Shown: positions 16,242 to 56,132 of the stretch, one piece after another | Layout: each line of letters starts with the position of its first letter | How positions within the stretch are numbered: position 1 is the stretch's first letter | Assembly: GCF_000512735.1 (NCBI RefSeq) | Contig: NZ_CP007028.1 | Span: 310,001 to 374,000 of the forward strand | Direction of reading: 5' to 3' | DNA length: 64,000 nt | Source: Thermocrinis ruber | Lineage (GTDB): Bacteria; Aquificota; Aquificia; Aquificales; Aquificaceae | The notes under the pieces: generated by a model | Database searches by the model: none | What the model was told of the DNA's origin: nothing | Seen by the model: only the letters and a program-made list of their open reading frames with translations | Program-made: the position numbers and the translations under genes

Positions 16242-16352
16242 GGCTTTTCACCAAGCTAAATAATTATATCAGAAGGTAAAAATCATACTCTCAATTCACA
16301 TAAGGTATAAGTTTTTCTGTAGGGAGGTAGTAGAGAAGGCAAAGGTAATCCT

Positions 16353-16371
16353 GATGCTGTTCTAAAAATCC
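16353..16371 (+). repeat. Left terminal inverted repeat, full copy
   Basis: 19 bp matching the reverse complement of 17975-17993 with one mismatch (third base). The core GTTCTAAAAAT also occurs at both ends of the deleted copy. Confidence 0.8.
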
Positions 16372-16378
16372 AAACCCA

Positions 16379-16407
16379 TTGACACACAAGAGTTTTAAGG
16401 CTAAAAT
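16379..16407 (+). promoter_or_regulatory. Consensus promoter inside the element's left end
   Basis: TTGACA at 16379-16384 and TAAAAT at 16402-16407 with an optimal 17-bp spacer. The hexamers and spacing are kept in the deleted copy. The -10 element ends 9 nt before the tnpB-like ATG, so the transcript would be nearly leaderless. Confidence 0.7.
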
Positions 16408-16416
16408 CTAACCCTG

Positions 16417-17973
16417 ATGTTTGTTAGCCTTCAGTTCAAGCTTGAACTGAAAAAGGAGGACAAAGAAAAACTCAAAAAGCTGATGCGTAAGCAATCTTCC
16501 GCCATCCGTGTGGCATACAACATGCTAAAGGATCTGGAAAAGGAAAAAACAAAAAATCCTCACGCCCAAATATACCATAGACTAAGACAGCTATTTCCTG
16601 AATTGCCAACAAAATACATTGACTCAGCTATTTACAAAGCTAAACAATATCCCACAGACAAATCAGTTATCTTTGGAGGCAAAAGACTTTTTGAAAAGCT
16701 TTGTAAAAACCACCTTTCAGGAGAGGCGAGAGAAAGACTTAAAAAGCAGTGGAGAGAACTAAGACAGGGAACACTCGTAAGCATTGGGTCAAAATCAGAC
16801 AGAGGAAACAGGCTAACAAGATTTGAAGACCTAAACGGACAGCTTTGCCTTAGAATTACCACAGGAAACAGAGAGTTTTTTTACGCCAAAGTGTTAAGAG
16901 AACCAAGCAATAGCAAAGATAAGTGGATAACTTTTATGGCTATGCTTTTAGAAAGCTGGCAAACTCAAAATTACTTTGCCTACACAGTGGAGTTAAAACT
17001 GAAAGATGGAGAAGTTTATGGAAGCGTATCCTTTGAAATCCCGACACCCAAAGTAAGATACACCAAAGAAAATGGAGTAATAGCCATAGACACAAACGCA
17101 TTACCCATACACTTAGCCATAGCGGAAGTCTCAAAAACTGGAGAATTAGTAAGCTATCAGACTATTAGCCTACACCATCTTTTAGGACTTTCCCAAAACA
17201 GCAAAAACCACCAAGAGTGGATATTAGCCCACAAGATAGTGGATTTGGCCATTCAGAAAGGTAAAGCTATAGCCATAGAGAACCTGAAGAAACTCAAAAG
17301 AGGAATGCGTGGAGATGGAAAAGCTACACTAAGAAAAATACTTCACAACTGGAACGCTAAAAAGTTCTTGCAAAAGCTAAAGAGGGTAGCAATGTTAAAG
17401 GGAGTGGAGGTAGTAGAGGTAAATCCTGCCTACACATCAGTTATTGGCATGCTAAAGTATGCACCACAGTTAAGCATAGATAAAGACGTAGCTGGTGCCT
17501 ATGTGATAGGGAGAAGGGCACTGGGATTTAAAGAGGACATGCCTGAGAATTACGAGAAGCTTTTAAAAGACAAAGCATATTTGGAGTTTGCACTGAAAAG
17601 GTATGAAGAGAGAGAAAAGGAGCTTAGGGAACTTATAGAGAAGGAAACCAATGAATACAAGAGAAACGCACTAAGAAGCGAACTAAGGAATGCAGAATAT
17701 GCAAGGAAGCTATTAACTCATCTCATACAAAGCCTTCAGAGTGAGCCAAGCGGATGTGAGGGAGCCAATGGAAGGAATCCCGAGCAGGGAAGGGTAGCAA
17801 AAACTACCCTTCAAAGTGCTTGGCAAGTTCTGAAGGTAGCCCTCCTCTTCCCTATCCTTGGAAAGGTCCTGCCAAGAGACCTTTCTCCCCTGAAGCCCGT
17901 GTTGGTGGAAGGGGTGTGGGATAGGGTGAGGAGTAGGTTAGTCCCTTTAGAGGCTGGAGGGGCGTCCCGATAA
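16417..17973 (+). CDS. TnpB-related RuvC-like nuclease without zinc ribbon
   Basis: A 518-residue protein of the TnpB-related type found in thermophiles. RuvC residues: D225 in GVIAIDTNALPIHLA, E288 in AIAIENLKKLKRG and D357 in SIDKDVAGAYVIGRRALGF, so the nuclease centre appears intact. The stretch NPAYTSVIGMLKYAPQLS lies where classical TnpB has a CxxC zinc ribbon; here there are no Cys pairs. An N-terminal helical part (1-200) holds the RNA/DNA-binding region. After a Lys/Glu-rich coiled segment (375-440) comes a tail (445-518) whose DNA overlaps the conserved right end. TnpB proteins are RNA-guided DNA nucleases; that activity is inferred here. Confidence 0.8.
   Translation: MFVSLQFKLELKKEDKEKLKKLMRKQSSAIRVAYNMLKDLEKEKTKNPHAQIYHRLRQLFPELPTKYIDSAIYKAKQYPTDKSVIFGGKRLFEKLCKNHLSGEARERLKKQWRELRQGTLVSIGSKSDRGNRLTRFEDLNGQLCLRITTGNREFFYAKVLREPSNSKDKWITFMAMLLESWQTQNYFAYTVELKLKDGEVYGSVSFEIPTPKVRYTKENGVIAIDTNALPIHLAIAEVSKTGELVSYQTISLHHLLGLSQNSKNHQEWILAHKIVDLAIQKGKAIAIENLKKLKRGMRGDGKATLRKILHNWNAKKFLQKLKRVAMLKGVEVVEVNPAYTSVIGMLKYAPQLSIDKDVAGAYVIGRRALGFKEDMPENYEKLLKDKAYLEFALKRYEEREKELRELIEKETNEYKRNALRSELRNAEYARKLLTHLIQSLQSEPSGCEGANGRNPEQGRVAKTTLQSAWQVLKVALLFPILGKVLPRDLSPLKPVLVEGVWDRVRSRLVPLEAGGASR
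16430..16451. repeat. 22-bp perfect palindrome in the left end, full copy
   Basis: Half-site TTCAGTTCAAG followed by its exact reverse complement. It lies in the first codons of the tnpB-like gene, 77 bp from the element's left end, and is kept base for base in the deleted copy at 26852-26873. Confidence 0.85.
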
Positions 17974-17993
17974 GGGATTTTTAGAACAGCCTC
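17867..17993 (+). ncRNA. Candidate guide-RNA (omega-RNA-like) scaffold at the right end
   Basis: This segment overlaps the 3' end of the tnpB-like gene. Bases 17900-17942 (43 nt) are identical to 26987-27029 in the deleted copy although the two copies differ at roughly 13 percent elsewhere. After it comes a nested hairpin: outer stem TCCCTT/AAGGGA and an inner GGG/CCC stem, then ATTTTT and the terminal repeat. TnpB systems take their guide RNA from just this place, with the guide reading into the flank. No transcription evidence is available, so this is a candidate only. Confidence 0.35.
17975..17993 (-). repeat. Right terminal inverted repeat, full copy
   Basis: Reads GGATTTTTAGAACAGCCTC on the plus strand, the inverse of the left end. 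It overlaps the T-run that follows the right-end hairpin. Confidence 0.8.
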
Positions 17994-18054
17994 AAGGCGA
18001 TCCTTGATAGGCTCAGGATAGGGCGGGAGAGCGAGTTTTCGCAGGAGATATACT

Positions 18055-26653: not shown

Positions 26654-26662
26654 TTTGAAAAG

Positions 26663-26735
26663 TGGGCTGGGCGGGAGTCGAACCCGCGACCCACGGATTA
26701 AGAGTCCGTTGCTCTGCCAGCTGAGCTACCAGCCC
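26663..26735 (-). tRNA. tRNA-Lys (anticodon CTT)
   Basis: A 73-nt cloverleaf on the minus strand: 7-bp acceptor stem (GGGCTGG with CCAGCCC), D-arm with AGCTCAGCTGGCAGAGC, anticodon stem ACGGA/TCCGT around loop CTCTTAA giving anticodon CTT, and T-arm GCGGGTTCGACTCCCGC. Discriminator base is A. The 3' CCA is not encoded. Confidence 0.95.
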
Positions 26736-26797
26736 TAAGTATTTTTAATTATAATACTTTTGCAATAACACAGCGAGGCTGTTCTAAAAATACAACC

Positions 26798-26829
26798 TCA
26801 TTGACAAAGAAGAGTTTTAAAGTTAAAAT
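26798..26829 (+). promoter_or_regulatory. Conserved element promoter in the deleted copy
   Basis: TTGACA, a 17-bp spacer and TAAAAT are kept from the full copy. The promoter points rightwards towards the RNA ligase gene at 27082, so it could supply that gene with transcripts unless the right-end hairpin stops them. Confidence 0.55.
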
Positions 26830-26838
26830 CTAACTCCG

Positions 26839-27072
26839 ATGTTTGTTAGCCTTCAGTTCAAGCTTGAACTGAAAAGAGAAGACAAAGAAAAACTCATAAA
26901 GCTTATGCGTAAGCAATCCTCCGCTATCCGAACCGTATACAATATGCTAAAGGTTTTGCCAATGGAACTTTTTCCCCTGAAGCCGATGTTGGTGGAAGGG
27001 GTGTGGGATAGGGTGAGGAGTAGGTTAGTTCCCTTAGAGGCTGGGGGTACAGTCCCAACAAGGGATTTTTAG
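26839..27072 (+). pseudogene. Deleted tnpB-like gene (N- and C-termini joined in frame)
   Basis: Encodes 77 residues: the first ~38 of the TnpB-like protein (MFVSLQFKLELKREDK... to YNMLK) fused in frame to the last ~35 (VLPMELFPLKP...LVEGVWDRVRSRLVPLEAGG). All three RuvC acidic residues are lost, so no nuclease can be made. The frame may be kept by chance, since 1335 is divisible by three. Confidence 0.75.
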
Positions 27073-27081
27073 AACGACCTC

Positions 27082-28185
27082 ATGACACAGCTACCACCAG
27101 AACTCGTAAGAGAAGCCCTCAAGAGGAACAAAGTAAAGATAGAAAACTACAAGGGCATAGAATACCTAAGGTTTATGGATGACTTTAAAGATGTGCCAAG
27201 GGGCACAGCCCTTTTTAAGTCCTTTACCCTTTGGGGGTACCCCCACATAGGCAGGATTTTCCAGCTGAGCACCGGGCTAAAAGAACAGTTCACACATCCT
27301 TTCTTTGTGGAAGAAAAGGTAGACGGATACAATACGCGGATCTTTCTTCACGAGGACCAGATCTTAGCCTTGAGTAGAGGAGGTTATGTATGTCCCTTTA
27401 CCACCGAGAGGGTTGAAGACTTTATAAACCTCAAGTTTTTTGAAGACCATCCTAACCTCGTTTTATGCGCAGAGGTGGCAGGACCAGAAAACCCCTACGT
27501 GGATGAGCATCCCCCTTACATCAAGGATGATATCCAGTTCTTTGTCTTTGACATAATGGAGAAAGACTCCCAGAGGTTTCTTCCATACAGGGAAAAAGAG
27601 AAGCTTATAGAAAAGTATGGGCTTCCTTCGGTGGAAAGGTATGGACTCTTTAGTGTGGAGGATGTGGATAAGCTAAAAAGATTGATGAAAAGATTAAACG
27701 AGGAGGGTAGAGAGGGAGTAGTAATGAAGGAAGACTCAGAGAGGGATAAAAGGGTAAAGTATGTTACCCTTTATTCAAGCCTAAAGGACATAGAAATAAC
27801 TTCCGTAAATCTTCTTGGTTTGCCCCCTGATTACTTTACCAACAGGCTCCTGAGGTTAGCCCTCTTCATGGAAGAGGAAGGCATAGAGGCAGACCAAGAG
27901 CTCTTTTTAAAAGTAGGTAAAGCCTTTTTGGAAGGGCTTCTTAAGGCAATCGAAATGTCTAAAAAGGATGGGCGTGTTTATAGGACCTTCCGGTGCAGGT
28001 TTAAAACAAGGGAGAATGCCTTACTTTTTATCGAAAGCATAAAGCATGCGTCCTCACAAGTGCAAGTACTCCAAAGGCGATTGGAAAAAGAAGGAGACTA
28101 TTGGGTACTGGAATTTGATCGGGTGTATCTTAACATGGCTGGTCTATTGGGACATCTGCTGGCGGGTGGGTCCATTTTTGATTGA
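27082..28185 (+). CDS. ATP-dependent RNA ligase, archaeal Rnl3 (Pab1020/MthRnl) type
   Basis: A 367-residue nucleotidyltransferase. The adenylated lysine is K79 in FFVEEKVDGYNTRIF (motif I KxDG). Other motifs follow: LCAEVAGPENPY (IIIa-like), IQFFVFDIMEK, GREGVVMKED (motif IV) and VKYVT (motif V). The C-terminal helical domain (about 240-367) is typical of Rnl3, which can circularise RNA in archaea. The ATG lies exactly at the junction with the deleted mobile element, within its target duplication. There is no Shine-Dalgarno sequence. The original -10 (TATAAT, about 26750) is now 330 bp upstream. Confidence 0.85.
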   Translation: MTQLPPELVREALKRNKVKIENYKGIEYLRFMDDFKDVPRGTALFKSFTLWGYPHIGRIFQLSTGLKEQFTHPFFVEEKVDGYNTRIFLHEDQILALSRGGYVCPFTTERVEDFINLKFFEDHPNLVLCAEVAGPENPYVDEHPPYIKDDIQFFVFDIMEKDSQRFLPYREKEKLIEKYGLPSVERYGLFSVEDVDKLKRLMKRLNEEGREGVVMKEDSERDKRVKYVTLYSSLKDIEITSVNLLGLPPDYFTNRLLRLALFMEEEGIEADQELFLKVGKAFLEGLLKAIEMSKKDGRVYRTFRCRFKTRENALLFIESIKHASSQVQVLQRRLEKEGDYWVLEFDRVYLNMAGLLGHLLAGGSIFD

Positions 28186-56004: not shown

Positions 56005-56132
56005 AGAGTTGGTCCAAACAGGCAAGCAAAAAAAGAGAGGAAAACCCAAAAATACGAAGATGCTTTGATCCTCACCCTGTGGCAAGAAAAGCACCCATTG
56101 CCTGCTCACTGCTTTTAATCATAGCCTTTTGA

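Follow-up and report, generated by a model that had tools for sequence, protein, structure and literature searches.

A TnpB-related nuclease gene lying between the ends of a DDE insertion sequence in Thermocrinis ruber

The element in the window and its relatives

The window, by which we mean the whole stretch of 64,000 nucleotides analysed here, contains at positions 16353-17993 an element of 1,641 bp, designated W. It is bounded by terminal inverted repeats of 19 bp with one mismatch (GATG versus GAGG; a pair search gives 20 nt at 95%). The window contains four matches to the 19-mer end at three mismatches or fewer, whereas shuffled windows gave 0.02, which excludes coincidence. The only ORF of at least 100 aa in the ORF list of the element is a gene of 518 aa, and tnpA is absent. 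A promoter in the left end stands nine bases upstream of the start codon of this gene, and the same hexamers are found in most other copies examined. A first-pass annotation of this DNA had described the 19-bp ends with their single mismatch, an 11-bp repeat (9/11) just outside them and a TnpB-related gene without tnpA. Each of these was borne out: the ends by a repeat search and the shuffled windows, the flanking repeat by an empty site in a relative that holds one copy, and the gene by the ORF list. The features are as follows.

16338-16341, + strand: GGCA motif, candidate TAM and DDE target motif, directly 5' of the left duplication
16342-16352, no strand: target duplication, left copy, 11 bp, AAGGTAATCCT, identical to the right copy at 9 of 11 positions
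16353-16371, + strand: left terminal inverted repeat, common to the DDE insertion sequence described below
16379-16407, + strand: sigma-70-like promoter TTGACA-17-TAAAAT in the left end
16417-17973, + strand: TnpB gene, probably IS607-type, zinc-ribbon-less, 518 aa (profile, RuvC triad, predicted fold, dN/dS)
17764-17993, + strand: candidate omegaRNA/reRNA-like guide-RNA scaffold with a nominal 5' edge, overlapping the gene 3' end and the right inverted repeat
17975-17993, - strand: right terminal inverted repeat (repeat search), in which the RNA scaffold has its 3' end
17994-18004, no strand: target duplication, right copy, AAGGCGATCCT, present once in the G004 empty site
17994-18013, + strand: putative guide (20 nt assumed), the flank that the RNA would read, placed by known TnpB element geometry
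26775-27081, + strand: deletion derivative of 307 bp, both inverted repeats kept (end matches; empty-site comparison with G001:C18)

The derivative at 26775-27081 is what had been taken for a second copy of the same structure. It does have the inverted repeats and a target duplication (9/10; 26765-26774 and 27082-27091), but it is a deletion derivative and not a full copy. It adjoins a tRNA-Lys gene (26662-26735).

The genome from which the window comes consists of one contig of 1.52 Mb and harbours six full-length W copies with 86-100% identity. Two of the six, at 122180 and 976427, have truncated left ends. Besides the one in the window, a deletion derivative is also present at 1193988-1194260, with a perfect 11-bp duplication. 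Dozens of W copies were found in other Thermocrinis and Hydrogenobacter genomes. The first-pass annotation had suggested looking at the duplications of other copies; they are indeed present and many are perfect, but their length varies (9, 10, 11 or 12 bp) and is not fixed at 11 bp. A more distant relative of W with 52% protein identity (G015, G022) has the ends GAGGCTGTTATAAAAA and duplications of 9-10 bp.

Joined W flanks were used to search relatives for empty sites. As a result, 14 insertions and one orthologous pair, the window copy included, could be aligned to uninterrupted or nearly uninterrupted sites. The empty site of the window copy (G004:C43, L434) reads GGGCA-AAGGCGATCCT-TGATAGG, with a single copy of the repeat, and the putative guide sequence matches this site beside GGCA. 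For the 26775-27081 derivative, the empty site is in G001 and shows a gap of one base at the motif. The empty-site alleles that had been proposed as a check on the element are thus found in relatives, and the W boundaries agree with them.

W copies L365 and L369 stand on contigs with the labels Candidatus Caldipriscus and Calescibacterium nevadense, the result of horizontal transfer or of mis-binning of Aquificales contigs. In the window's own genome, two end-like sequences lie inverted and 4.2 kb apart (C1:922488-926670, L051) around a 616-aa ORF and others. There is no transposase inside and no duplication, and the pair probably represents two separate remnants.

A DDE insertion sequence with the ends of W

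Searching relatives with the W end sequence revealed an insertion sequence, D (L166; G001:C50:35362-36295), in which a DDE_Tnp_1 transposase gene lies between W-type ends with the same 16-bp end. D is flanked in G001 by a perfect 10-bp duplication, GCGAAACAGT. Its transposase domain matched PF01609 with 48 bits (gathering score, 23), and the NCBIfam models IS5_2 and IS4_1 both matched below cut-off. Further D copies sit at contig ends in G012, and the best D copy carries a 5' deletion relative to the G012 contig-end sequence; a complete intact D was not among the assembled copies. A DDE transposase gene sharing the ends of W, which the first-pass annotation had named as something to look for, is therefore present in relatives in the form of D. 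A protein search did not find the D transposase in the window's own genome. Among 64 genomes of the family, D matches fall in the same seven as W copies with more than 70% identity; six of the seven belong to one genus, and in the window's own genome D is matched by no more than a fragment of 37 bp. This fragment, at 56047-56083 of the window, is 95% identical to the D interior and is the only trace of D found in that genome.

W shares the ends of a cut-and-paste insertion sequence and so is probably moved by the enzyme of that insertion sequence. In two chimeras, L217 (G006) and L250 (G002), the left outer end is the right end of D and the right outer end is the right end of W; both are flanked by perfect duplications. 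L217 has kept a TnpB ORF of 520 aa, and its site is empty in the window's genome. These chimeras moved as units, and nothing else in the sequences argues as strongly for a single transposase acting on both sets of ends. Mobilization of W in trans by the D transposase appears well supported by these comparisons.

Short D-derived elements (L122, L123, L210, L221) have GTCA outside the right end but lack a matching left-hand duplication, perhaps through an adjacent deletion or through recombination between copies. A distant DDE insertion sequence was observed in G009 (L190, L202, L212). It is 32% identical to D and has a transposase of 323 aa, and its ends are AGCCTGTTGAAAAAATCG. It is flanked by perfect 9-bp duplications, and two of its three copies have a one-sided GTCA, at a defined end. 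The G009 genome has no W match.

The nuclease, the right-end RNA and the left-side motif

The W protein matched TIGR01766 with 54.1 bits (cut-off, 32). The score against NF040570 (guided_TnpB), 47.6 bits, was below the cut-off of 100, and that against PF07282 was below the gathering score. The RuvC residues D225, E288 and D357 are unchanged down to 40% identity, and the D-E-D triad is present in all 23 full copies. The C4 zinc ribbon before the third acid is absent in the W protein and in its IS607 relatives, and we call the protein a member of a TnpB-related, ribbon-less clade. An AlphaFold2 model (mean pLDDT 80, pTM 0.60) gave a predicted fold whose best structure matches are Cas12f, followed by TnpB (ISDra2, ISFba1). 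A Pfam match to DUF2192 was taken as a chance match of a coiled coil.

The nearest homologues outside the W group display 38-47% identity and come from Ammonifex, Caldanaerobacter, Bacterium HR37 and others. They bear other conserved ends, GGAGG...ACAACAGTTG to ...GACCAGG, and at the three loci examined an IS607 serine transposase gene lies directly upstream (NF033518, 213-230 bits; cut-off, 110). As the nearest outside relatives stand beside IS607 serine transposases, we infer that a TnpB of the IS607 type came to lie between DDE ends by capture within Aquificaceae. The early description of the gene as TnpB-related thus holds and can be refined to a probable IS607-type ancestry, without the zinc ribbon. 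A second TnpB lineage occurs in the same genomes (L394, L399, L400, L401), with 41-45% identity in relatives; the copies examined have IS607-like ends without W-type inverted repeats. A segment of the window's own genome (C1:904143-904415; 70% DNA identity) may also belong to this lineage.

Over codons 1-430, dN/dS was 0.10 at a mean dS of 0.59 (253 pairs of the 23 full copies). Judged from these sequence comparisons, the W nuclease is not decaying and is under strong selection. Toward the 3' end of the gene, divergence at four-fold sites, mostly 0.17-0.37 elsewhere, drops to 0.08-0.12 over codons 451-510, and divergence at first and second positions is raised at codons 421-480. This pattern is the sign of an overlapping RNA. 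RNAalifold was applied to an alignment of 28 right ends and gave a structure of 68 pairs, in which one helix pairs AGGT with the terminal GCCT of the inverted repeat. Thirteen pairs are changed on both sides, against 6.3 in shuffles, and none of 500 shuffles reached this number. In a slide control, at most 5 pairs were changed on both sides; this control is somewhat favourable because RNAalifold took the structure from the same alignment, a bias that does not affect the shuffle control or the synonymous-site drop. No Rfam match was obtained for the right-end RNA. The pattern of substitution indicates that a structured candidate guide RNA, overlapping the gene 3' end, is conserved by strong selection.

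The RNA is also found in elements that have no ORF. Four mini-elements of ~306-308 bp (L124, L149, L219, L241) are flanked by perfect 10-12 bp duplications, and three of the four have a TTGAAA-16-TATAAT promoter. They have the same RNA core as W with different stem sequences. Some derivatives, such as that at 26775-27081, are without part of the RNA core. Since most mini-elements keep the promoter and the structured candidate guide RNA, they could borrow both transposase and nuclease, that is, they could be guide-RNA-only elements using the two enzymes in trans.

Of 36 W insertions, 32 have an NCA sequence, often GNCA, 9-12 nt outside the left end, where it abuts the duplication, compared with 8 of 61 right ends (left versus right, p 6e-14). 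Among D copies, 17 of 20 right ends have NCA, and GTCA is also found at 4 of 16 left ends, compared with 0 of 61 right ends of W (p 0.0013). The ratio of GGCA to GTCA is 11:8 at W sites, whereas D sites are nearly all GTCA, 14:1 (p 0.003). The (G)NCA motif belongs at least in part to the transposase family itself: the G009 insertion sequence, whose genome has no W, shows GTCA at the corresponding end (2/3). A reading of the left-side NCA as a pure TnpB signature was dropped, as this insertion sequence has a right-end GTCA in a genome with no W match. Since (G)NCA is also a target preference of the DDE transposase, the motif alone does not prove a TAM, and we regard it as a candidate TAM of the W TnpB. 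If TnpB requires a TAM, a stricter orientation of W, as seen here, would be expected; different end sequences or D variants could also bring it about.

Interpretation and comparison with known systems

A role in the persistence of IS200/605 and IS607 elements is ascribed to TnpB and its descendants (Cas12, Fanzor). We consider it probable that W is a non-autonomous cut-and-paste element in which an IS607-type TnpB and its guide RNA lie between D ends, and which is moved in trans, with TnpB acting in retention or homing. According to this proposal, the D transposase would insert W in trans beside (G)NCA, making the 9-12 bp duplication. The RNA of the inserted W would then take the duplication and the downstream right flank as its guide. 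With (G)NCA to the left of the duplication as the TAM, an empty allele would offer both TAM and target and could be cut by TnpB, and repair by recombination from the filled allele would restore W. The transposase would thus provide mobility, and TnpB retention or homing. The guide matches the left junction over no more than 9-12 bases next to the motif, and a match of this length may not suffice for self-cutting. A role of the nuclease in retention fits with a nuclease and an RNA that are intact and selected and with the left-side motif. Origin of the duplication from a staggered cut by TnpB itself was considered and rejected; TnpB cuts 15-21 nt from its motif, while the duplication begins at the motif.

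A rival view is that TnpB is a mere passenger without any part in the upkeep of an element moved by a DDE transposase. The transposase alone accounts for the (G)NCA target motif, and the IS607-type TnpBs that have been studied use G-rich TAMs, GGG in the case of ISXfa1 (PMC10711439). On the other hand, a passenger would not be expected to display a dN/dS of 0.10 at a mean dS of 0.59 with 23 of 23 triads intact, nor an overlapping RNA that is conserved by compensatory changes and kept in most ORF-less mini-elements. In addition, W is never clearly reversed relative to the motif, whereas 4 of 16 left ends of D carry GTCA in the reversed arrangement (p 0.0013). We therefore regard the passenger view as unlikely. 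Use of TnpB and its RNA by the host, in regulation or in defence against plasmids, with the transposon ends as fossils, would agree with the age and divergence of the copies in the window's genome (86-89% identity) and with the lack of a detected transposase there. However, this one genome has six full copies at unrelated sites, and relatives show lineage-specific insertions with perfect duplications. The catalytic triad is also intact, unlike that of nuclease-dead TnpB regulators, and the guides would derive from the flanks. Such co-option is highly improbable.

The first-pass annotation had left a choice between a new element class and a passive element that is mobilized in trans and is retained with the aid of its nuclease. 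An autonomous class, in which the TnpB-like protein itself transposes W, might be supposed from the absence of a transposase gene in W and from the failure of a search to find one in its own genome. This is scarcely credible, as a DDE insertion sequence has identical ends and duplications, W/D chimeras have moved as units, gene-less mini-elements have perfect duplications, and the relatives of the protein sit in IS607 elements with a serine tnpA. RuvC nucleases are not known to make such target duplications. The shared DDE ends, the chimeras and the empty sites instead uphold the passive element moved in trans, and the part of that claim concerning retention keeps the status of an inference. 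Going further, we tentatively put forward, with somewhat less than even confidence, a parasitic system of three tiers: a DDE insertion sequence providing mobility, a captured IS607-type TnpB that homes, guided by RNA, to sites picked by this transposase, with the target motif of the transposase as its TAM, and ORF-less mini-elements, made up of ends, promoter and guide RNA, that exploit both enzymes.

Some of the parts are already known, in mobile insertion cassettes and in eukaryotic Fanzor-only TIR elements. In the open-licence literature we found no earlier case of a bacterial TnpB in a DDE element, the precedents being eukaryotic only, and none in Thermocrinis or Aquificales. Bao and Jurka stated in 2013 that bacterial TnpB-only elements have neither inverted repeats nor duplications, and for eukaryotic Fanzors there is a description of their capture by DDE transposons (PMC3627910). 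Yoon et al. proposed that adaptable IS607 reRNA boundaries allow co-option by new eukaryotic transposons (PMC10711439). The capture seen in W would be a bacterial parallel to the proposed co-option from IS607 to Fanzor2. A bacterial TnpB with a selected guide RNA in an element moved in trans would mean that transposition mechanisms with no relation to one another can take up this nuclease module, and the RNA-only mini-elements would let one test whether a guide RNA alone benefits a transposon.

As in mobile insertion cassettes (MIC231, IS231/IS4 group), the ends of an autonomous DDE insertion sequence surround a passenger gene in W, with no transposase of its own and duplications of ~10 bp or more in the cassettes, 9-12 bp in W and 10 bp in D. 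W differs from MIC231 in that its passenger is a putative RNA-guided nuclease with a candidate guide RNA, its target motif is one-sided, and its partner is a DDE_Tnp_1 insertion sequence that matches IS5_2 and IS4_1 below cut-off only. The ~306-bp derivatives resemble bacterial MITEs in having inverted repeats, duplications and no ORF, but most of them keep the promoter and the structured candidate guide RNA. IS607 elements with TnpB harbour the closest outside relatives of the protein, and their reRNA likewise overlaps the gene end. In contrast to them, W is without serine tnpA and GG-type junctions and has other ends, inverted repeats and 9-12 bp duplications. With IS200/IS605 TnpB elements W has in common a RuvC D-E-D nuclease, a right-end guide RNA (a candidate in W) and a motif to the left of the insertion; it is without their Y1 transposase and zinc ribbon, and has inverted repeats and duplications. 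SPu-1, a Fanzor-only eukaryotic TIR element (PMC3627910), resembles W in its lone TnpB relative, inverted repeats and target duplications, in being moved by a partner, and in an ORF that is intact in old copies (PMC3627910). W differs from SPu-1 in being bacterial, in carrying what is probably an IS607-type, ribbon-less TnpB rather than a Fanzor1, in its variable 9-12 bp duplications and in its RNA-only mini-elements.
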